A stretch of DNA of 64,000 nucleotides, taken from the NCBI RefSeq assembly GCF_000488275.1, contig NZ_KI530765.1, positions 1 to 64,000 on the forward strand, in the 5' to 3' direction. Shown piece after piece: positions 1,628 through 64,000 of this stretch. The notes beneath the pieces were generated by a model. That model saw only the letters and a program-made list of their open reading frames with translations. It ran no database searches and was not told the origin of the DNA. Both the position numbers and the translations under genes were made by a program. This stretch comes from Acinetobacter brisouii CIP 110357. GTDB lineage: Bacteria; Pseudomonadota; Gammaproteobacteria; Pseudomonadales; Moraxellaceae. Every line of letters starts with the position of its first letter. The stretch's first letter is position 1.

Positions 1628-2767
1628 TTACTTAAGATTCGTTTTGAAAAACTGAGCGAATTTATCAAATGGAATGACCCCAGCCTGATTGTCATATAAA
1701 TCAACGTGATTGGCATTTGGGATAATGAGCAATTCTTTATTTTTGCTACCAATAGCCTTATAAGCATCTTCTGCAAAATAGCGAGAATGCGCTTTCTCCC
1801 CAGTCACGATCAGGGTCGGGATTGTGATTTCACTCGCATAACTTAATAAAGGCATGTTCATAAATGATAAGGGCATAGTTGTGTTCCATGCACTCGTTGA
1901 GTTAATTGATCGTGGATGATAACCACGTGGTGTACGGTAATAATCAAAAAATTCTTTTAAGACTGGATGAGGATGATCGGGTAGCACTTCAGGTAATCCT
2001 CGATCTGCAGCCATGACATTGCCATCTTTATCAACGTAGATATCATGATTTGAACGGGCAATCGTTCCACTCTCGGCATCTTTCCAACGCTGGTCATTGA
2101 TATATTTTAAGACAGCTCTACGATCTGCAGTTGAATAGCGATCTTTACCATCACCGACACCATGTCCCATGGCCCGACTCATGTCATACATCACACTGGT
2201 TGCAACCGCTTTGACACGTGTATCTGCTGCAACAGCGTTTAATGCCATTCCGCCTAAACCACAAATGCCTAATATGCCAATTCGATTTCGGTCAACTTCA
2301 TGTTGCAAACCTAAAAAATCGACCGCAGCGCTAAAGTCTTCGGTATTAATATCAGGCGATGCGACATTGCGTGGTTGTCCTCCACTTTCTCCAGTATAGG
2401 ATGGATCAAAAGCCAACGTGATAAATCCTTTCTCAGCAAGTGTTTGAGCATATAATCCACTCGATTGTTCTTTCACTGCACCAAATGGACCGCTAATTGC
2501 AATCGCTGAAAGTGGATGAGTACCACGGTTTTTAGGGAGATATAAATCGCCCACTAAAGTAATGCCATAGCGATTTTGAAAGGATACTTTTCGATGTTCT
2601 ACTTTATGACTTTCTGGGAATGTCTTATCCCATTGGGTAATCATAGATACAGGTAAATTTGGATTGGTGTTTTGAGCCATAGTCATTGTTGTAACTCCTG
2701 ACAATGCCGTTCCCAACATCAGGGAAGTGAAAATAGGTATAAATTTCTTTGAAATAGACTTCATCAT
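1628..2767 (-). CDS. Exported alpha/beta hydrolase, dienelactone-hydrolase-like
   Basis: The 379-residue protein starts with a signal peptide (basic MMKSISKK, hydrophobic stretch, cleavage near TMAQ at about 31). The fold is alpha/beta hydrolase, with the nucleophile elbow GICGLGG placing a cysteine at residue 169 where most relatives have serine; G-x-C-x-G is the dienelactone hydrolase signature. The histidine is probably that in NANHVDLYD near the C-terminus. AAGGAGT precedes two adjacent ATGs; either could be the start. It is divergent from a LysR gene at 2957, its likely regulator. A paralogue with the same Cys elbow is at 42248-43336. Substrate unknown. Confidence 0.82.
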   Translation of the reverse strand: MMKSISKKFIPIFTSLMLGTALSGVTTMTMAQNTNPNLPVSMITQWDKTFPESHKVEHRKVSFQNRYGITLVGDLYLPKNRGTHPLSAIAISGPFGAVKEQSSGLYAQTLAEKGFITLAFDPSYTGESGGQPRNVASPDINTEDFSAAVDFLGLQHEVDRNRIGILGICGLGGMALNAVAADTRVKAVATSVMYDMSRAMGHGVGDGKDRYSTADRRAVLKYINDQRWKDAESGTIARSNHDIYVDKDGNVMAADRGLPEVLPDHPHPVLKEFFDYYRTPRGYHPRSINSTSAWNTTMPLSFMNMPLLSYASEITIPTLIVTGEKAHSRYFAEDAYKAIGSKNKELLIIPNANHVDLYDNQAGVIPFDKFAQFFKTNLK

Positions 2768-2956
2768 TTAACTCCTTAAAGACAGAGTGTCAGCTCGTTT
2801 GTTGCTGATTTTCTAAACATGCAATTATTTTAATAAGAACTTATTGTGATGATTAGTTGCTATTTATAGATAATATTAATACCAAAATGATATAAATATT
2901 ATTTAAAGTCTTTCTTAAGATCGGCCAATAATTTTTAGTGTTTGGGTAATAGTGAA

Positions 2957-3841
2957 ATGCAGATTCGATATAGCTATAACGATTTACATGTTTTTATGTT
3001 GGTTGCTCGAGAGGGGAGCTTTACCAAAGCCGCAACAAAATTAGGTGTGGCGCAGTCAGGTGTAAGCCGTACAGTTCGAGAACTAGAAGAACATTTAGGA
3101 TTACAACTTTTAACTCGTACCACCCGAAAACTTTCATTAACACAAGCTGGTGAACAACTTTATAGAACAACCCTTGAAAGTTTCCAGACCCTTGAAAATG
3201 GTCTTTCAATGCTTGCTCACTATCGGGAGACACCTTCTGGTACAGTTAGAATTAATGCTAGTCAACATGCCATTGAAAAAGTCTTGCTGCCCAAGTTAGC
3301 CGTCTTTAAGGAACGTTATCCAGATATCAAGCTCGAACTGATCAGTGAAAGTCGCTTTGTTGATATCATTACGGAACAATTTGATGCAGGAGTACGCTTA
3401 GGTGGTGAAGTCAGTGAGGGCATGATTGCTGTCAGAATTACTCCTGATATGGAAATGGTGGTTGTCGCAACCCCAGAACATTTTCGCCGCTATGGATTTC
3501 CTGAAACACCTAAAGATTTGAGTCTTCATCCTTGTATTTCCTATCAATTAGAGGATGGAAATACTTATCAGTGGGAATTTTGGATGAATAATAAACAGGT
3601 ACTTCACAAACCTGAAGGGCAATGGGTGTTTTCAGATAGTTATATGGAAGTTGCAGCAGCAAGGATGGGGCTAGGTTTAGCATATGTACCAAAGGAATTA
3701 GTGACCGAAGACCTTGATCAAGGTAATCTCATTCAGGTATTAAAGCCATTCAGCCATCATTATGAAGGTCTATTTTTATATTATCCGCATAGAAATGTTT
3801 CACCAGCACTAAGGATGGTGGTTAATACACTAAAAATATAA
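2957..3841 (+). CDS. LysR-family transcriptional regulator
   Basis: The protein has the standard LysR layout: winged helix-turn-helix in the first 60 residues (FTKAATKLGVAQSGVSRTVR) and a periplasmic-binding-like effector domain from about residue 90. I chose the ATG of MQIRYSYNDL because the longer frame opens with TTG and lacks a better ribosome site. It is divergent from the DLH-like hydrolase at 1628-2767 across 190 AT-rich bases, the usual LysR target arrangement. Inducer unknown. Confidence 0.9.
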   Translation: MQIRYSYNDLHVFMLVAREGSFTKAATKLGVAQSGVSRTVRELEEHLGLQLLTRTTRKLSLTQAGEQLYRTTLESFQTLENGLSMLAHYRETPSGTVRINASQHAIEKVLLPKLAVFKERYPDIKLELISESRFVDIITEQFDAGVRLGGEVSEGMIAVRITPDMEMVVVATPEHFRRYGFPETPKDLSLHPCISYQLEDGNTYQWEFWMNNKQVLHKPEGQWVFSDSYMEVAAARMGLGLAYVPKELVTEDLDQGNLIQVLKPFSHHYEGLFLYYPHRNVSPALRMVVNTLKI

Positions 3842-4160
3842 GGCACTTCATTTGAGAATCTAAGGTTATTAAAAGATAAACTTTATTATCTAGAATTGAA
3901 TAAAACAGGGGAGCCAAAACATCCTCTTTACATCCATTCTTCAACTCAAATAAAGCCTTTTTTAGACTCTATTTAACTTATGTTCACCTAAATCCTAGTT
4001 CACAATAAATTATTAAAATTTATAGTTTATTTTCAATAATTTATTTCGATAAATTATTTTACTTAAAAAACATGGTTCATGAACCTAAGCTTTTTATTAA
4101 AACTAAACTTAAAACCATAAGTTCTTTCATTCGATTGAAGCCTACTCTCGTTTATTGAGG

Positions 4161-4186
4161 AAAAAGCATCAAAAGATGCCTTTTTT
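4161..4186. terminator. Rho-independent terminator
   Basis: AAAAAGCATC, loop AAAA, GATGCCTTTTTT: a short GC stem with an A tract before and a T tract after. It can end transcription from both sides and lies just beyond the stop of the oxidoreductase at 4202. The stretch 3842-4160 holds no gene that I can support. Confidence 0.7.
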
Positions 4187-4201
4187 CTCTTTTCCCTGAA
4201 T

Positions 4202-5200
4202 TTATTCTGAAATTTTTACGACGACTTTACCTTTTGCTCGTCCAGTATTCACATATTGTAAAGCATCTTTAATCTCTGGAAATGTATATGACTTATCAAC
4301 GATTGGATTTATTTTCCCAAACTCTACTAATTTTGAAATTTCAGATAGCTGTTGTCCATTCGGCTGCATAAACAAAAATGAGTAAGTCATTCCTCTCTTT
4401 TTAGCTTTTTTTCGGATTGACCAACTTAAAAGAGGAATAATACATTTCAATAACCAATTTGCATGAATTGCTTCTGCGAAATCACGATCAGGTGGACCAG
4501 AGATACTGATAATTCGACCACCACGTTTAAGAACATTTAGAGATTTCTCTAAAATTTTTCCACCTTGCGTATCTAAGACTACGTCATAGTCTTTAAGCTC
4601 TTGTTCAAAATCAGTTGTTTTGTAATCAATGATAATGTCTGCGCCTAATGCTTTGACCCATTGTGCATTTTTACCACTCGTGGTTGTCGCAACAGTGGCA
4701 CCTAAGTGTTTCGCAAGCTGAATAGCAATTGATCCAACACCGCCAGAACCTGCATGAATAAGCACTTTTTGTCCTGCTTGAACTTTCGCAATTTCAACCA
4801 AGGCCTGCCATGCAGTCAATGAAACAAGAGGAAGAGAAGCTGCGAGTTCCATAGAAATATTTTGAGGTTTTAGAGCCAGCGAAGATTGCTGAACTACGGT
4901 ATATTCAGCAAAAGCGCCATTTTGGTCAGTTTTGGCATACACGTCATCACCAGCTTTAAACTGTTTAACATTTGCGCCAACTTGAACAACTGTACCTGCA
5001 AAATCATTGCCTAAAATAAAAGGAAACTTTACAGGCTGAATTGCCTTAAATTCACCTTCTAAAACCCTTAAGTCCAGAGGATTAATACTTGCTGCATGTA
5101 TTTGAACAAGTACATCATTTTCTGTAATCAGTGGTTTAGATTGTTCATCTAGTTGCACATCATCAATATTGCCGTAACGGTTAATGTAGGCTGCTTTCAT
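4202..5200 (-). CDS. NADP-dependent quinone oxidoreductase-like dehydrogenase (MDR, zinc-independent)
   Basis: The 332-residue medium-chain dehydrogenase/reductase has a GroES-like N-terminal half (residues 1-125) and a Rossmann domain with GSGGVGSIAIQLAKHLGA near residue 150, binding NAD(P)H. The zinc-ligand cysteines of true alcohol dehydrogenases are absent, placing it with quinone oxidoreductase/enoyl reductase relatives. I start at MKAAYINRYG; the longer frame needs a TTG. It is divergent from the hydrolase operon at 5556, and the intergenic region carries the repeats shared with the HxlR promoter at 9630, so HxlR may control it. Likely role: reduction of reactive carbonyls or quinones. 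Confidence 0.88.
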   Translation of the reverse strand: MKAAYINRYGNIDDVQLDEQSKPLITENDVLVQIHAASINPLDLRVLEGEFKAIQPVKFPFILGNDFAGTVVQVGANVKQFKAGDDVYAKTDQNGAFAEYTVVQQSSLALKPQNISMELAASLPLVSLTAWQALVEIAKVQAGQKVLIHAGSGGVGSIAIQLAKHLGATVATTTSGKNAQWVKALGADIIIDYKTTDFEQELKDYDVVLDTQGGKILEKSLNVLKRGGRIISISGPPDRDFAEAIHANWLLKCIIPLLSWSIRKKAKKRGMTYSFLFMQPNGQQLSEISKLVEFGKINPIVDKSYTFPEIKDALQYVNTGRAKGKVVVKISE

Positions 5201-5365
5201 ATAAGACCTCAATTGGTTTGCTTTTTTTTTTAATGTTTTACACGTGTAAATCTACATTAAATTTTCAGACTAGGTTGCATATCAGACTCTTTAGTTAGTT
5301 AAAACTTAAAAGTGTATTCGAGTAATCAACAATGTTTATTTTTTTATCATAATCTAAAAAATTAG

Positions 5366-5392
5366 TAGTTACTACTAAAAAGATAGTGACTA
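5366..5392. promoter_or_regulatory. Tandem operator half-sites, candidate HxlR target
   Basis: TAGTTACTA (5366-5374) and TAGTGACTA (5384-5392) are direct repeats 18 bases apart, start to start. A third partial copy, TAGTGACAA, lies at 5429. The same motif with the same 18-base spacing occurs in front of the HxlR gene at 9630-9656. HxlR proteins are known to bind tandem direct repeats. The site lies between the divergent genes at 4202 and 5556. Confidence 0.5.
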
Positions 5393-5555
5393 TTTGAAAT
5401 TATTCCAGTATTGTTAGTATTAATTCGATAGTGACAATGATTTTTCCTATTGAAGAGTGCATAGACCAGCTCAACATATGAATGATTTTTAAAGTATGTG
5501 GTTCTTATTCTTAGGGTAGCGGTTTAGATATTAATCTTACTTTAGGTAATTAATC

Positions 5556-6512
5556 ATGCGTGGCTTACTCAAAAAAAGTCTGATTTCAATAGCTTTAACT
5601 GTATCTAGTTCAATCTATGCCGATGTAAATACAGCTATGACTCAGAATTCAGGAGCGATTGTAATGGCGGAAAAACAATATCAATGGACAACTGTTCCAA
5701 CTCAATTTATTTCAGCTGATGGCGTTAGCTTCGCATACCGAGAGTATGGTCAGCAAAATGGCGGTACACCTGTGATCTTCTTAAATCATTTAGCTGCTGT
5801 CTTAGACAATTGGGATCCACGAATCATTGATGGTATTGCAGCGAAACATCATGTCGTTATTTTTGATAATCGTGGTGTTGGTGCTTCTACTGGTGAGCCT
5901 GCAAAGTCCATTGAACAAATGGCAGATGATGCGATTACTTTTATTCAGGCGAAAGGGTTTAAACAAGTCGATTTATTCGGTTTTTCAATGGGTGGCATGA
6001 TTTCGCAAGAGATTGTTTTGAAACAACCACAATTGATCCGAAAAATGATTTTATCGGGAACTGGACCTGCTGGCGGAACTGGAATTAGTACAGTGGGTCG
6101 AGTTTCAAATTGGGATTTAGTTCGTGGTATGGCGACTCGTCAAGACCCTAAAGTTTACTTATTTTTTACTCGTACAGAGAATGGCAAAGCTGCTGCAAAA
6201 GAATTTGTGCAACGTATAAATGAACGTACTGAAAATCGCGATAAAGAAATAACGATTTCTGCATATCGTGCCCAGCTTAAAGCATTAAAAAAATGGGGAA
6301 ATAAGAAACCAGCCGATCTTTCTATCATTCAACAGCCAGTATTGGTGGCGAATGGTGATCATGATCGTATGGTTCCAACAGTGAATACCTACGACTTGGC
6401 AAAACGCCTTCCAAATAGCGCACTCATCATTTATCCAGATGCAGGACATGGTGGAATCTTTCAGTTTCATGATGATTTCGTCAAACAATCGCTCACTTTT
6501 TTAGCTAAATAA
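5556..6512 (+). CDS. Exported alpha/beta hydrolase
   Basis: The 318-residue protein has a signal peptide (MRGLLKKSLISIALTVSSSIYA, cleavage near 22). The alpha/beta hydrolase core shows FDNRGVGAST, the elbow GFSMGG with Ser144 as nucleophile, an acid near GDHDRMVP and a histidine in DAGHGG. Family members include haloalkane/epoxide hydrolases, C-C hydrolases and esterases; the motifs do not decide. It is followed after 41 bases by a cytoplasmic paralogue (6554), which lacks the signal peptide. This pair, the SCP2-like gene and the flavin oxidoreductase form one probable operon ending near 9118. Confidence 0.85.
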   Translation: MRGLLKKSLISIALTVSSSIYADVNTAMTQNSGAIVMAEKQYQWTTVPTQFISADGVSFAYREYGQQNGGTPVIFLNHLAAVLDNWDPRIIDGIAAKHHVVIFDNRGVGASTGEPAKSIEQMADDAITFIQAKGFKQVDLFGFSMGGMISQEIVLKQPQLIRKMILSGTGPAGGTGISTVGRVSNWDLVRGMATRQDPKVYLFFTRTENGKAAAKEFVQRINERTENRDKEITISAYRAQLKALKKWGNKKPADLSIIQQPVLVANGDHDRMVPTVNTYDLAKRLPNSALIIYPDAGHGGIFQFHDDFVKQSLTFLAK

Positions 6513-37072: not shown

Positions 37073-38800
37073 ATGCGCAATACAACACAAGTCTTAAAAG
37101 GGCTTAACCCCGCAGTCTCAATAGGCTCAAAACTACTACTATTTGTTTTTATTGCTTTTTGTATTTTTAGAGAACAGCAGGCAGGCGAATATTTCCAGTT
37201 TATTTCAACCAGTTTGCTAAATAATGCAAAATGGTTTCTTCTCCTACTGGCAACATTGTTATTGGTTTTTTTAGTTTATTTATGTATGAGTCGCTATGGA
37301 CATATTCGACTAGGAAAAGATGATGAAAAGCCTGAATACAGCAATATTGCTTGGATCTCCATGCTGTTTTCCTGTGGAATGGGTGTTGGGCTATTATTTT
37401 GGTCAGTAGCAGAACCTATTACCCACTATGCCAGTAATCCTTTTACTCAAGGCTTCACAGATGAAGCAGCCAGCATGGCAATGCAGATTACATTTTTCCA
37501 CTGGGGGCTACACCCTTGGGGGCTATTTTGCATGGCGGCAGTTGCTTTAGGTTATTTCTGCTATCGTAAGGACTTACCTTTTGCCATGCGTTCGATTTTA
37601 TATCCACTAATTGGCAACCGAATTTATGGCCCGATTGGAAATATCGTTGATATTTTAACAATTGTGATCACGGCCTTTGGTGTTTCTCAATCTCTGAGTA
37701 TGGGCATTTTGGAGCTTAACACAGGGCTTAATCATACCTTTGGTATTAATATTGACGTAAAAATTCAGCTCGCTATGGTCATCGTCTTATGTACTTTGGC
37801 GACCATTTCCCTCATGTCAGCGATCAGTAAAGGCTTTAAAGTGATTGCTGAGGGCAACATGATCATCTCTTATTTTTTAGTCTTTGTCGTGATTGTATTG
37901 GGCGCGACTCGCTATATTTTCAACTCTTTCTTTGAAGGGGTTGGTGATTATCTACAACATATCGTTGGTATGAGCTTATGGAGTGATGCCCAAAAAGATT
38001 CAGGCTGGCAAAACTGGTGGACTGCATATTATTGGCCTTGGTGGATGACTTGGGCACCATTTGTCGGTATGTTTATCGCCCGTATTTCTAGAGGACGGAC
38101 GATCCGTGAGCTCATTTGCTGTACCTTATTTGCCCCGACTTTACTAACGTTCATCTGGATTGCAGCATTTGGTGGTGCTTCACTCAAGATCGAAAAAGAA
38201 GCTCGGGCGAGACCAGCGCATGAACTGGTGATCAATCAACAACATGGCAGCAATACTAGCAGTAATGCCAAAGCTGATATTGCAAAGCATGAGCCACATA
38301 AAATGTCGATTGCTGAGGCAACCAAAGCAGATCCGACTCGTGCTGTTTTCGTATTCTTTGACCACATTAGTTCTAGCTCAACAACTAAAATTTTCCTTAG
38401 CTCCCTTCTATGTTTATTGTTAGCAATTCACATTATTACCTTAGTCAACTCTGGAACCCTAGTGCTATGTTTTCTTGATGCGAATGGAACAACAGATCCG
38501 TCTATTAGTATCCGTCTGATCTGGGGAATTATTATCCCATTAATTGGAGGTGGTTTAATCATCGCTGGTGGGCTTAAAGCCATTCAAACAGCAACCATTA
38601 TTGCAGGTTTTCCAATTGCAATATTACTGGGAATCATGGCCGTTTCTTTATTCAAAAGCTTACGTCAAGAACCACAAGCATGGGCAATGATGCCTGAGCA
38701 TGTTCGACCAGACTTCTGTAAAGCCGAAAGTGATAAGCCTGTAGATAAAAATAGCTCTCTTCAGACAATTTCAAAAGATCATCTCGCCATAAAAGAATAA
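37073..38800 (+). CDS. BCCT-family transporter for quaternary ammonium compounds
   Basis: The 575-residue protein has about twelve helices, a strong ribosome site and the BCCT core signature WWMTWAPFVGMFIARISRGR followed by TIRE. FSCGMGVGLLFWSVAEP is the glycine-rich unwound helix that binds sodium and substrate. Relatives carry choline, glycine betaine or carnitine. A hydrophilic insertion of about 55 residues (about 375-430, rich in Ser, Asn, Lys) is unusual for the family. Divergent from the Rieske operon and followed by the LysR gene. Confidence 0.92.
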   Translation: MRNTTQVLKGLNPAVSIGSKLLLFVFIAFCIFREQQAGEYFQFISTSLLNNAKWFLLLLATLLLVFLVYLCMSRYGHIRLGKDDEKPEYSNIAWISMLFSCGMGVGLLFWSVAEPITHYASNPFTQGFTDEAASMAMQITFFHWGLHPWGLFCMAAVALGYFCYRKDLPFAMRSILYPLIGNRIYGPIGNIVDILTIVITAFGVSQSLSMGILELNTGLNHTFGINIDVKIQLAMVIVLCTLATISLMSAISKGFKVIAEGNMIISYFLVFVVIVLGATRYIFNSFFEGVGDYLQHIVGMSLWSDAQKDSGWQNWWTAYYWPWWMTWAPFVGMFIARISRGRTIRELICCTLFAPTLLTFIWIAAFGGASLKIEKEARARPAHELVINQQHGSNTSSNAKADIAKHEPHKMSIAEATKADPTRAVFVFFDHISSSSTTKIFLSSLLCLLLAIHIITLVNSGTLVLCFLDANGTTDPSISIRLIWGIIIPLIGGGLIIAGGLKAIQTATIIAGFPIAILLGIMAVSLFKSLRQEPQAWAMMPEHVRPDFCKAESDKPVDKNSSLQTISKDHLAIKE

Positions 38801-59267: not shown

Positions 59268-59582
59268 ATGCGCAATAAACAAATTCTGATTCGACTCAGC
59301 GATGCAGAACATCGACAACTGGCTGAACTGTGTCAGCAGCTGGAGCTAAATCAGTCAGAAGTGATTCGGCATCAGTTATTCAACCAGAAGCCATCAGCAC
59401 ATGTAGAGCTGGCACAGGTTCAAGAGCTTCGCATGATTGCTTTGCAGCTCAAACACATTTTACAGCACGATAATTGTCTCTCCGCAGCTGAACGGGCGGA
59501 TCATGCAACGGATCTTGAAGCACTGATCGAGGAGCTTAAACTGATCGTGCGTAAGTTGAGTCAAGGAGTGCATCTCGCATGA
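59268..59582 (+). CDS. MobC-like relaxosome accessory protein
   Basis: The 104-residue protein has a ribbon-helix-helix-like start (NKQILIRLSDAEHRQLAELC, then SEVIRHQLF) and a helical coiled-coil tail. Small DNA-binding proteins of this kind load the relaxase at oriT. It ends with a 4-base ATGA overlap into the relaxase gene. A ribosome site GGAGC sits before the start. Confidence 0.75.
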   Translation: MRNKQILIRLSDAEHRQLAELCQQLELNQSEVIRHQLFNQKPSAHVELAQVQELRMIALQLKHILQHDNCLSAAERADHATDLEALIEELKLIVRKLSQGVHLA

Positions 59583-62392
59583 TCTTAAAGCTGATCGCAA
59601 ACACTCGCTCCACGTCATTGAAACAACGCGTCAATGGACTATTAAACTATATTCAAAATCCCGAAAATACCCGTGCCAAAAATTTGAGCAACTATATCCG
59701 TCAGCCATTTGCATCTCAGCCTGCATGGAATGAGGATGCGCTGCTTGAAAAATGTGTTTATGCCAGCTCAAGGAATTTTCTGGATGATGATCCTGAGCAG
59801 CAAAAAATCGAAATGCTGCAAACCGCGAGTTTAAATCGTCGTGTAGAAGACCCGATCGTGCACCTTGTGGCGAGTTTTAAAAAATTTGAAGTTCCAACAA
59901 TTCAGCAAATCGAAGAGCAGATCGATATTCTGCTCCGGCATTTAAATGCTAAAGCGCTGCAAGTGCAGTATGCAATGCATCTCGATACAGATAATGCGCA
60001 TTATCATGTTGTGATCAACAAGATTCATCCTTTTGAAAAAAATCAGCATCAGCAGCACAAATGCGTCAATCTCGGTGACGGCTGGATCCTCAATGCACTG
60101 CACCGCAGTGCTGCAGAAATTGAAGCCACGCAGGGCTGGAGCTCCGAACCCAATCCGATGTTTGTTTATAATCGACGCACTCAAACAGTAGAAAGCAATC
60201 CTGCATACATGAAAATCTCGGATGCAGAGAAACTTCCTGCACCCATTCTGGATCGGGCTTACCGACATCAACAACCGAGCACGTTACAGCAGGAGATTCA
60301 CTTTGCAAAAAGCTATCAGCAGTATGTTGAATCTTCTGTGCAGAATATTTTGCGTCGCGCCAACTCTTGGCAGGACTGGCATCAGGCGTTAGCGGAAAAA
60401 GGTCTGACGTTTGAAAAAAAACGTAATGGCGCCATTTTTCAGTTAAAGACTTTCACTGAACAGATCACATTTAAAGCGTCCTTGTTTTGTCAGAAGCAAG
60501 CTACCCTGCCCCAGCTGCAGCATCACTGGGGGCCATATCAGACCGCAGCCGAGGGAATCCGTCCCCAAGCCGTCCCGGATCAGGAAGTTCAGTCCCGAGT
60601 AACGTCTCCGTCCAGCAAGACGAAGATCCATCCATTTCATTTATTTCAATCTCAAGATTATCTGGTCGCAGAATTGCACAATGTCTATCTCACCCTGAAA
60701 ATGCAGAAAGATCAAATTACCGACCTGCACAAACAGGCTGCGGCTGAAATCAAGCAGAATCATGAAGATTATCAATTTTTTGAAAGAGATCTACAGATTA
60801 AACAGCAGCAACAGCAATCACCAAACATGGCCTTAGATCAGATTGAAGCCACGCTGGATGATCAGCACGCTCTCCAGCAGAAAAATGATCGATCGGATAG
60901 ACGGACCCAGTATGCACTGAGTCACCAGCAATTGACGGCCAAGTTAGTCAAGGATGGGATGGGACAACTGCTCTTTTCATCACCAAAGATAAATTCGGCA
61001 CAGATCACCTCCTACGCGGATTTTATCTCGCATCTTGATCGGGAACATCCACTGGTTATTGCGCAGCAGTTTCTGCTGGATCAGCGTCAGTCTGCCAATT
61101 TTATTCATGCACCGAATCCCAAATGCCGTCAAGCCCAGCTGATCTATGACGAGCAGCTTAAACATGAACCAATTGCGGTGATGAACCAGTACGGCATCCA
61201 GATGTTTAGCCAGTATTCCATACCGCGAATTCAGCAATGCCTGAAATTGCTGAATGCTGATACTTCAATTGAATTTTCTGGAGAATCATCATTTAAACAA
61301 CAGGCGCAGATTGCCCTGCAGCATCGGGATCACCAGATTGAAGATCCTAACCCACAGCATGAACTGCCGCGACTGGAGCAGATCTCATCCTCTGATCTTG
61401 AGGTGTTTTTTGATCAGCTGTATCAGCACTTTCAGCAACATCACAATCTGCAGACCGCGATTTTCAAAGCCAATTTGCTACTCAGCTGCTGCCATGTGAA
61501 TAGCGATCGACTGGAGCGGAACCTGAAAGAATACAGCGATGAATTTTTTAATTTCAACTTGCAGGCGCCGGATCGCAACAATTTGATGCTGCGCTTAAAA
61601 AGCGTGCTCTGCACCCAGCCCATCGCGCAGAACCGGCAATATTTTAATGCACAGGATCTTGATTTGGTTTGGCAGGTCGCATTAAAACTTGAATACAATT
61701 TATTAAAACGAAAAACAGCCAAAATCATCAACAAGCCAAAGCCGCAAGGTGGTTCGAAACTCGTGATTGAAGAGATTGTGTTACCCGAGAGAGATCCGGA
61801 TTTTTTAAATGAGGTGATGCAAGAATTATCATTCCAGCGTCGCAAATCACGGCTGCAGCAACAGTTCCTCGAAGTTTCTGAGATCAGTTCAACTTCAAAT
61901 TCGTTCGGTGCATGTCAACGCATCGATGCTGAAGTGAAATCCCTACCGCACTTTCCTAAAGACCGATATAAAATCATCTGTCAGTTTGAGCATCAGTTTT
62001 ATATCGACCGTGAGCTCAATCAGACCGCCTTTATTGAAAACACGCATCAGGCATATATTACCGTCGTCAGTCCGCTGGAGGTTCATGTCCGTGATGCCCT
62101 ATTTCTGGCCCATGCGCGATATGGGGAAGTCATGATTTCTGGCAACGAGCAATTCAAGGCACAGGTGGAAGCGATTGCACGCCAGTATCAAATTCCCGTG
62201 ATCCGGGAAGAACATCTCGAACAGCGACAAGCGCAATCGGAGGTTCCGGCCCAGCCGTCAGCAGCTGGGGTTACAGGACATGATCGCCAGACAAATCGAC
62301 CTCAACAGGATTCAACACCACCGCTTGAACCACAACAGCGCCCTAACCCCACATCTCAGAAAAGCGCATATGGTCATGACTTTGATTTATAG
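59579..62392 (+). CDS. Relaxase (MobP-type TraI/MobA) with C-terminal LPD7-like domain
   Basis: The 937-residue protein nicks oriT and pilots the strand in conjugation. The relaxase domain (residues 1-300) has a candidate catalytic Tyr24 (LLNYIQNPEN) and motif III with the metal triad His134/His141/His143 (MHLDTDNAHYHVVINK). The middle is long, glutamine-rich and helical. At about 810-890 (YKIICQFEHQFYIDRELNQT ... VHVRDALFLAHARYG) it resembles the LPD7 domain of other plasmid relaxases. Disordered proline-rich tail. No primase or helicase domain. The plasmid is thus mobilizable but lacks its own transfer channel in this window. Confidence 0.88.
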   Translation: MILKLIANTRSTSLKQRVNGLLNYIQNPENTRAKNLSNYIRQPFASQPAWNEDALLEKCVYASSRNFLDDDPEQQKIEMLQTASLNRRVEDPIVHLVASFKKFEVPTIQQIEEQIDILLRHLNAKALQVQYAMHLDTDNAHYHVVINKIHPFEKNQHQQHKCVNLGDGWILNALHRSAAEIEATQGWSSEPNPMFVYNRRTQTVESNPAYMKISDAEKLPAPILDRAYRHQQPSTLQQEIHFAKSYQQYVESSVQNILRRANSWQDWHQALAEKGLTFEKKRNGAIFQLKTFTEQITFKASLFCQKQATLPQLQHHWGPYQTAAEGIRPQAVPDQEVQSRVTSPSSKTKIHPFHLFQSQDYLVAELHNVYLTLKMQKDQITDLHKQAAAEIKQNHEDYQFFERDLQIKQQQQQSPNMALDQIEATLDDQHALQQKNDRSDRRTQYALSHQQLTAKLVKDGMGQLLFSSPKINSAQITSYADFISHLDREHPLVIAQQFLLDQRQSANFIHAPNPKCRQAQLIYDEQLKHEPIAVMNQYGIQMFSQYSIPRIQQCLKLLNADTSIEFSGESSFKQQAQIALQHRDHQIEDPNPQHELPRLEQISSSDLEVFFDQLYQHFQQHHNLQTAIFKANLLLSCCHVNSDRLERNLKEYSDEFFNFNLQAPDRNNLMLRLKSVLCTQPIAQNRQYFNAQDLDLVWQVALKLEYNLLKRKTAKIINKPKPQGGSKLVIEEIVLPERDPDFLNEVMQELSFQRRKSRLQQQFLEVSEISSTSNSFGACQRIDAEVKSLPHFPKDRYKIICQFEHQFYIDRELNQTAFIENTHQAYITVVSPLEVHVRDALFLAHARYGEVMISGNEQFKAQVEAIARQYQIPVIREEHLEQRQAQSEVPAQPSAAGVTGHDRQTNRPQQDSTPPLEPQQRPNPTSQKSAYGHDFDL

Positions 62393-62770: not shown

Positions 62771-62843
62771 ATAACCTGCTGTAGGTTATAAATTACCAAA
62801 GTATTAATTGCATTGCAATAAAAAATAACTTGCAGTAGGTTAT
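62771..62843. promoter_or_regulatory. Two operator copies upstream of an XRE regulator
   Basis: ATAACCTGCTGTAGGTTAT (62771-62789, symmetric arms ATAACCT/AGGTTAT) and ATAACTTGCAGTAGGTTAT (62825-62843) differ in three bases. They sit 22 and 76 bases before the start codon, fitting autoregulation by the encoded protein. Confidence 0.65.
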
Positions 62844-62864
62844 TTTTATATTTTAGAAAACAAT

Positions 62865-63092
62865 ATGATTCATTGTAAGTTATCTAGCCTGATGGGCGAT
62901 CGTAAGATTTTAAAGTTGAGTGATGTAGCCAATGCCACAGGAATTAACCGGAATACATTGACCAGCATGTACTACGATCGTGCCGTCAGAATTGAACTAC
63001 CAGTTGCAGATAAACTGTGTAAGTTCTTTAATTGCAGCATGAATGAGCTGTTTGAATATAGCGATGAAGAGAATGATACCGAATCAGCCTGA
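62865..63092 (+). CDS. Small XRE/Cro-type regulator
   Basis: The 75-residue protein matches the single-domain Cro/YozG type: ILKLSDVANATGINRNTLTS as the helix-turn-helix, LPVADKLCKFFNCSMNELFE as the typical dimer-side tail, and an acidic end. Two symmetric operators precede it. It may control replication or transfer functions. Confidence 0.82.
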   Translation: MIHCKLSSLMGDRKILKLSDVANATGINRNTLTSMYYDRAVRIELPVADKLCKFFNCSMNELFEYSDEENDTESA

Positions 63093-64000
63093 TTTGATCC
63101 TTCCCTGCAAGATCCACATAGATACCCACTAATTGCCTTGGTGTCATTCAACACGCCTCAATGCCTAATGGCGCTATACTGCTTTAAAAGATCAATCCCA
63201 ACCCTTAGATTGATCGTTCACGATGTTGTTACGCCATCCCCGCTTCATCCAGCTTAGATCCCGACATAAATTTCGCAATCACAGAAATCGTCCGCAGCAA
63301 TCTGCTGCTACGTGCGAAGATATATGCTCATAATTTCATCAAAAATAGTAAAAAATCACTGTTTAAGTGTGATTTACAAATTTTTTTGATGAAAACGCCT
63401 AAAAACCACATCAATCGAAAGGTCAAAATTTTTTTTTTGATACGCTCCACCTGTCAGAAAATCGCTAATTTTTAAAAAAATTTTACGCGACCTGATGTGG
63501 TGTGGGTGGAAGGATTAAGCGACGCTAGCGCACCACAGCGATTGTTCTAAGGCATTTAGAGCAAGAGTTGCTACTAGGGTATATCGACAAAGCAACAACG
63601 TGATGAGTAGCTGAATACTTGGCTTAAATCGTATATTGGGGAAACCCTTGCGGAGATGGTTAGTTCAGTTGGTTTGGGAACGTGTCGATGCGGTGTGTGA
63701 ATCGTAATCTCAGCCTATGTAGGAAAGCACAATTACCTACTGCAGATACGACCGATGCGTGGCTCCGTCAGCCCGAAATTGGCATTCGGCAATACTTTAA
63801 GAGCAGGCAATTTTTGCTGGCTCTTAGGGTGAGTATTGCCGAAACTCTTTCAACGTTCACCATCAGCCCAAAGGGCTTGCCCGACGGCTGGTGGGACTGT
63901 TGAAAAGTTGAGCGCTTTAGATGATTAAATATTTACATACTAGCTTGAATATTCTTATGCGAATTTACTGGCTTAGATCCTCATTATTCTTTTTATTTTG
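63093..64000. other. Gene-free region dense in inverted repeats (candidate structured RNA or origin)
   Basis: No convincing gene. Hairpins: GCAGCA/TGCTGC (63294-63308); TTTCATCAAAAA/TTTTTGATGAAA (63334-63345 with 63383-63394) enclosing AAATCAC/GTGATTT; ACCACATCA (63405-63413) with TGATGTGGT (63493-63501); GTAGG/CCTAC near 63719-63742; and a strong nested stem CGGCAATACT ... AGTATTGCCG with AAGAGC/GCTCTT inside, near 63786-63842. From about 63500 the base composition is more GC-rich than its surroundings. It could be a large non-coding RNA, a replication origin or a transfer site. Confidence 0.5.

Follow-up and report, generated by a model that had tools for sequence, protein, structure and literature searches.

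Replication of ColE1 is primed by RNA: an RNA–DNA hybrid is formed, RNase H cleaves it, and Pol I starts from it. The ColE1-like plasmids described across the gamma-Proteobacteria (PMC8683028) represent the origin class into which the family reported here would fall; the profiles used in that work recovered one ColE1 plasmid in Acinetobacter, and whether this reflects rarity or low sensitivity was left undecided there, whereas the present RNA family is widespread in the genus. Among A. baumannii plasmids, 142 of 621 have no identifiable Rep, and pRAY*, pD36-1, pA85-1b, and pNDM-BJ01 are named among these Rep-less plasmids (PMC9927589).

Several published plasmids are relevant here. A ColE1-like antisense mechanism has been guessed for pRAY* (PMC6160057), and the same ColE1-type guess was made for pRAY in PMC5559437; a HindIII deletion of pRAY* measuring 2,808 bp, pRAY*-delta1, still replicates (PMC6160057). 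For pAbe229-4 of A. bereziniae, also a small Rep-less Acinetobacter plasmid, RNAI and RNAII have been proposed (PMC6863613), but that proposal rests on 54% and 44% identity to ColE1, and the comparison made here is with the published description only. A 4,450-bp contig (L168), considered for its length as a candidate for pAbe229-4, was rejected: its GC content is 38.2% against the published 36.4%, and no more than the 3′ end of the RNA is present, where the contig breaks off. For pAhaeAN54e, an 834-bp minimal replicon has been mapped and ascribed to three peptides, P2, P3, and P4 (PMC11142715); it contains the same element as the one studied here, for which those authors propose peptides instead. 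The accessible text of that paper uses the word "antisense" nowhere and mentions ColE1 once, for a vector. Among the papers listed in searches of the open-licence PMC literature, none defines this RNA family.

The window analyzed here is a stretch of 64,000 nucleotides, bases 1–64000 of an 86,482-bp contig (G000:C4) of Acinetobacter brisouii CIP 110357. A preliminary description of its right edge, from 63093 onward, had proposed a structured noncoding region, for which three possible identities were offered: a large noncoding RNA, an origin, and a transfer region of unknown type. The structure is real, in that both halves of the region fold better than dinucleotide shuffles; conservation is confined to 63495–63920 and the left and right halves do not make up one conserved unit. 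We interpret 63495–63920 as, very probably, the 3′ portion of a pre-primer RNA resembling RNAII, from a family of ColE1-type replicons that occurs on Moraxellaceae plasmids and does not depend on Rep. This reading rests on covariation, on an RNAI-like layout, on the absence of Rep from small carriers, and on overlap with two published replicating fragments. The first two of the proposed identities would then hold jointly, with covariation indicating an RNA and context pointing to an RNA-primed replication origin. Features of the region and its surroundings are collected in the table.

Features of the structured region and neighboring genes (coordinates are those of contig G000:C4)
Feature	Coordinates	Strand	Basis or remarks
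MobA-type relaxase gene	59579–62392		Left of structured region; with a NikA-like partner
Short frame		−	Left of structured region
Cro/C1-type regulator	62865–63092		Left of structured region
Diverged 5′ region, strongly folded, where other copies have the putative RNAI/5′ RNAII block	63093–63494	+	z −4.2, 0/100 shuffles
AT-rich hairpin, outer stem kept in relative L005	63334–63394		Repeat search
Conserved structured RNA domain (probable RNAII-like pre-primer, 3′ part)	63495–63920	+	Starts of blastn homologues, covariation, model R1
Helix P1 with conserved purine-rich apical region	63496–63537 (arms 63496–63504/63529–63537)	+	Covariation
GGGG-AAA-CCC hairpin	63638–63647	+	Variants GGGGAAACCC / GGAGAAATCC / GGGTAATACCC in relatives; helix 8, 99.5% paired
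Long hairpin with T-rich apical loop	63785–63843 (arms 63785–63796/63832–63843)	+	Repeat search; helix 13, 95.3% paired
Terminal helix, 3′ limit of conservation	63847–63907 (about 63847–63854/63899–63907)	+	Alignments; helix 17, 89.6% paired
Fic/YhfG pair		−	Right of region, at window edge
Rep_3 initiator gene	65111–66112 (domain 65189–65638)		Right of Fic/YhfG
ParA-type ATPase gene			Right of Fic/YhfG

A repeat search of 62800–64000 recovered two of the stems seen earlier, those of the AT-rich hairpin (63334–63359/63369–63394, 81% complementary) and of the long hairpin (100% complementary), and added a pair, 62831/63731, lying 886 nt apart; a long-range pair described at 63405/63493 is no longer than about 7 nt and did not appear in the search output. 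The rise in GC content said to begin at 63500 is weak to modest (0.40 over 63400–63599, 0.47 over 63600–63799, and 0.405 over 63800–63999, against 0.34–0.415 before). No gene is evident from 63500 onward, as had been stated: a 73-aa frame inside the element (63682–63903) has no Pfam match, ARAGORN found no tRNA or tmRNA, and the next gene encodes a Fic protein on the − strand, ending at 63993.

The best blastn homologues of the window sequence start at 63495, and homology stops near 63920. Querying 72,556 plasmid records with this interval returned 164 matches at E ≤1e−5, 161 of them in Acinetobacter, and phage records contained no match to the element. With a longer query, no annotated gene underlay the match in 60 of 60 cases among the matches listed, the gene table being known to be incomplete. 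When one genome per species was considered, 39 of 149 members of the genus matched the window query and 43 of 175 matched a query from a related copy, L038. A model of 113 positions (R1), with the window in its training set, matched 53 of 348 Moraxellaceae genomes: 48 from the window's genus and five from a second genus. The long hairpin is also present in pNDM-BJ01, which shares the terminal helix as well (z −4.1). A comparison with Rfam, suggested in the preliminary description, yielded no family at the gathering score for the window, nor for L038, L042, or L077 (pNDM-BJ01). Below the cut-off nothing usable appeared; the hit to ctRNA_pGA1 (28.9 bits against a cut-off of 45) falls on the terminator hairpin of the putative RNAI in L038.

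On the + strand, 63490–63930 folds with a z score of −3.6, with 0 of 100 shuffles as good, as compared with −2.7 and 1 of 100 for the opposite strand; fold energies for the right half are −156.3 and −119.5 kcal/mol on the + and − strands, respectively. Covariation was assessed in an alignment (A2) of 23 rows, hand-picked for diversity and including the window and pNDM-BJ01, against an RNAalifold structure of 101 pairs computed from 22 rows, without pNDM-BJ01. Across the 23 sequences, 91.9% of cells are paired and 45 of the 101 pairs show changes on both sides. Two-sided cells number 205, against 71 after shuffling, and none of 500 shuffles reached as high, with the qualification that the shuffles ignore relatedness; the number of further pair types was reached by 14 of the 500. 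The check for covariance in homologues proposed in the preliminary description thus returned a strong signal. Sliding the partner by one to three columns left 37–47% of cells paired, a control that favors the structure because this very alignment was used to derive it. Helix P1 has two-sided changes in nine of nine pairs and 98.6% pairing over 23 sequences, and 29 GU and no AC combinations over 22 rows. For the structure as a whole, the same 22 rows contain 343 GU pairs versus 43 AC mismatches, as expected for an RNA of the + strand, and the consensus structure scores −139.7 in sense versus −108.0 in antisense. The interval 63495–63920 is a covarying RNA on the + strand, rather than a DNA motif. 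Of a further alignment (A4), 28 of 35 rows were taken.

In most of the relatives examined, a second conserved block lies about 290 nt before helix P1; by one motif, that of hairpin II, it is present in 55 of 71 candidate copies. These 55 cluster to 33, and the alignment built from them (A1) has 31 rows, leaving out L037, which spans the record start, and L073, the longest. Read on the opposite strand, the block contains three stem-loops, with a run of T after the final one (pNDM-BJ01, L038, and pRAY*). A terminator scan of pNDM-BJ01 identified this final hairpin on the − strand, with 13 pairs, and also scored it, less strongly, on the + strand. Over 34 pairs of these hairpins in 31 sequences, 92.3% of cells are paired, and 89 two-sided cells compare with 28 after shuffling (0 of 500 as high), while further pair types were reached by 23 of 500 shuffles. 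Counted in the sense orientation, hairpin I has 13 AC and 5 GU and so leans toward the opposite strand; hairpin III favors neither strand (18 GU, 14 AC), a point against the ColE1-type reading. The loop of hairpin II appears hypervariable by eye, and eight of its 11 stem pairs are invariant. An opposite-strand CTTG is invariant in all 31 rows of A1 and forms the −35 element of the best antisense promoter match in 23 of them; as that match is equalled by 32% of shuffles per row, any strength of the antisense promoter lies in its shared position. No sense (RNAII) promoter stands out, the best match being equalled by 82% of shuffles, and promoter-like sites in pNDM-BJ01 occur at chance level, which also counts against the ColE1-type reading. 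At the level of sequence, then, the 5′ block is predicted to encode an antisense RNA resembling RNAI, one loop of which is hypervariable, behind a promoter-like motif. The five loci of the second genus (L082–L086) display, by eye, the same order: an opposite-strand terminator-like hairpin, two stem-loops, one with a variable loop, and the 3′ domain.

As compared with ColE1 (NC_001371; RF00106), the family possesses a long structured sense RNA, which by its covariation would correspond to pre-primer RNAII, and a short putative antisense RNA with three stem-loops, the last terminator-like, opposite the 5′ end. In complete relatives, but not in the window copy, this matches by sequence the ColE1 layout, in which an RNAI about 100 nt long, made up of stem-loops and a terminator, lies opposite the RNAII 5′ end. 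No Rep protein was found on the family's small carriers, and among 58 carrier ORFs one has an MbeB domain and one an MbeD domain. The differences lie in sequence: the Rfam RNAI model finds ColE1 (645–749, 73.8 bits) and nothing in L038, L042, or L077, and R1 has no match in ColE1. Since no sequence homology to RNAI/RNAII was found, we class the family with ColE1 by its presumed mode of action and make no claim of proven homology. The ColE1 record (L092) itself annotates a "replication initiation protein" (784–942, − strand) just beside the Rfam RNAI match. This frame, which we take to fall within the expected RNAII region, illustrates how a small frame within an RNA origin can be given a protein name.

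Among the 48 genomes of the genus with the RNA, 81 contigs carry it, 54 of them under 10 kb; several of these genomes are drafts, and some of the small contigs are fragments of such assemblies that may represent just part of a plasmid, which counts against the ColE1-type reading. None of the 54 carriers under 10 kb has a match to Rep_3 (PF01051), Replicase (PF03090), or Rep_1 (PF01446). A Rep family is present in nine of 19 carriers of 10–60 kb and in four of eight above 60 kb, figures that count against the ColE1-type reading. The same 48 genomes contain 225 contigs with a Rep-family match, one of which (Rep_1) is under its cut-off. The plasmid of L038, a carrier of 3,618 bp with the element at about 2570–3345, is annotated with three genes, and no Rep is among them. 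In 11 complete carriers, 65 ORFs of at least 100 aa were collected (shorter ORFs were left out), and the 58 that do not span record ends were scanned; no replication initiator domain occurred among the matches listed (25 of 43 Pfam families). Of the seven ORFs spanning record ends, which were inspected by eye, six are presumably other proteins and one (106 aa) has no name. A gene of L041 annotated as "plasmid replication DNA-binding protein" has weak helix-turn-helix matches only; helix-turn-helix proteins so annotated, or resembling it, were observed in L041 (4333–4872) and L082 (5848–6375). As judged computationally, no plasmid-encoded initiator appears to be needed on the small carriers; the window's own contig has Rep_3. 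The element was found in pRAY*, pD36-1, pA85-1b, and pNDM-BJ01. A copy was also observed at G075:C1:2262029–2262149, with a score of 70.1 bits, similar to that of pNDM-BJ01, on a 3.17-Mb contig; such a plasmid may therefore be chromosomally integrated.

By analogy with ColE1, host RNA polymerase would make the pre-primer, which would stay hybridized close to where the element ends on its 3′ side; DNA synthesis would be started at the hybrid by RNase H and Pol I, and RNAI would pair with the 5′ stem-loops, block priming, and set the copy number. It is from this analogy that we infer transcription, hybrid formation, priming, and inhibition by RNAI. In 16 of 23 rows, the final 60 nt include a run of at least four G (three in the window); as a sign of an RNA–DNA hybrid, such a run is only suggestive.

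The window copy departs from this layout. It has no recognizable RNAI block, the place of which is taken by the folded sequence at 63093–63494, and this counts against the ColE1-type reading. The 5′ half matches three of 172 other genomes of the genus: L005 (G132:C3) over most of its length, G139 over about 97 nt, and G044 over 31 nt. The last of these matches is to part of the AT-rich hairpin, at 90% identity with G044:C32:80312–80342. The idea of the 5′ half as a conserved RNA of the same family found no support, as only L005 shares most of it. The corresponding region of L005 folds with a z score of −1.95. A two-sequence consensus fold of the 5′ half scored somewhat better in antisense, but was set aside as uninformative because its pairs were chosen on the same two sequences.

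The contigs that carry the window and L005 copies are large, and each has a Rep_3 gene or genes. On the window's plasmid, direct repeats visible by eye precede the Rep_3 gene, and this Rep_3 iteron replicon, about 1.2 kb to the right of the element, is a separate replicon from the RNA element. Given a large Rep_3 plasmid and a replaced RNAI block, the window copy is probably a secondary replicon, derived from fusion with a small plasmid, its control block having been replaced. Alternatively, the element in the window may be a dead relic, a reading to which we give somewhat less than an even chance. The RNAI block and its terminator are absent (between 63000 and 64000, no intrinsic terminator and one promoter-like site, versus 2.0 expected, were found), and a Rep_3 gene with direct repeats lies 1–2 kb to the right, all of which a relic would explain. 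Of 97 pairs compared between the window and L005, 85 are the same, two are compensated on both sides, and four are changed on one side and still paired, while six are broken in one of the two copies, again in the direction of decay. Set against this, the RNA domain is 88.8% identical between the two, like the neighboring gene (89.5%), versus 65.2% for 63093–63494, and R1 gives the window copy 110 bits (63748–63854), within the 108–125 of complete small carriers, although the window was a member of the training set.

For the family as a whole, it is improbable that the RNA has no part in replication and serves its plasmids in regulation or addiction instead. It would account for a free-standing structured RNA, and some carriers do hold toxin–antitoxin genes; however, the RNA is present on Rep-less plasmids down to 3.6 kb, terminator scans of pNDM-BJ01 and the window gave none at its 3′ end, and it is wholly or almost wholly kept in both mapped replicating fragments. 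The only single HindIII deletion of pRAY* that leaves 2,808 bp removes 1742 to 5012 and retains the element at 5194–5618. The coordinates of the 834-bp replicon convert by one constant to 37372–38206 of pNDM-BJ01, a conversion checked by the recovery there of the 66-, 47-, and 47-aa frames, with P2 off by one base. Within this interval are the RNAI block, preceded by 65 bases upstream of hairpin I, as well as helix P1 and the long hairpin. It stops at 38206, and the 3′ arm of the terminal helix lies at about 38206–38226, so that the last 20-odd bases fall outside, against the ColE1-type reading; either the arm was unneeded in that test, or the transition from RNA to DNA takes place upstream of it.

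The model of PMC11142715, in which peptides P2, P3, and P4 from the opposite strand start replication as a protein-type initiator, is very improbable. Base changes at the start of each peptide frame abolished replication (PMC11142715), the frames are present in pNDM-BJ01 at the stated lengths, and P2 is open in L169 and L090, though without a start codon. However, P2 and P3 start at the aligned place in none of 30 relatives, and P4, which does so in 20 of 30, is open in two of 30 over the alignable 90 of 145 nt; conserved P2, P3, and P4 frames were not found. L088, a 39-kb contig from a genome without a Rep_3 or Replicase match, is 93% identical over P2, where it has lost one base, gained one, and acquired three stops, and it has stops in P3 as well; L169 has stops in P3 and P4, and L087 is identical to pNDM-BJ01. 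A tblastn search found no relative of P2 or P3 below E 0.5, and its P4 matches, down to E 1e−5, lie over the conserved hairpins, several of them with stops. The published base changes also strike the RNA, since hairpin II contains the start of P4 and the long hairpin that of P2; the RNA thus explains the loss of replication as well.

An origin of transfer or relaxosome recognition structure, the last identity put forward in the preliminary description, is scarcely credible: many carriers are mobilizable with mob genes nearby, and the window's relaxase gene ends 1.1 kb upstream of the element, yet the same RNA occurs with MOBQ, with MOBP, and on plasmids typed as nonmobilizable, its strand bias is that of an RNA, and pRAY*-delta1, without mobA and mobC, is not mobilized but replicates, with the element present (PMC6160057).

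Under the ColE1-type reading, the repeated guess about pRAY becomes a defined, testable RNA origin, and a different reading is offered for the published 834-bp replicon (PMC11142715). Types whose named member has the element account for 62 of the 142 Rep-less plasmids (27 pRAY*, 7 pD36-1, 20 pA85-1b, and 8 pNDM-BJ01-related; PMC9927589). The element would serve as a typing marker for plasmids missed by rep typing, and the hypervariable loop of the putative RNAI predicts incompatibility. Carriers include plasmids that spread drug resistance, and the origin proposed here gives a testable answer to how they copy themselves. A broader evolutionary proposal, in which the Moraxellaceae family of RNA-primed origins arose separately from ColE1 and, in addition, the window's lineage acquired an unrelated structured block in place of its antisense control block, so that the replicon has either a new specificity or no specificity at all, is as a whole rather doubtful.

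Two minor observations concern sequence beside the element. In L006, a 37-nt stretch (127–164 of the extended copy) matches several places in L077 (41734–44547), in both orientations. In the second genus (L082–L086), three TTGTCCA words resembling DnaA boxes are visible by eye downstream of the long hairpin, after the RNA.
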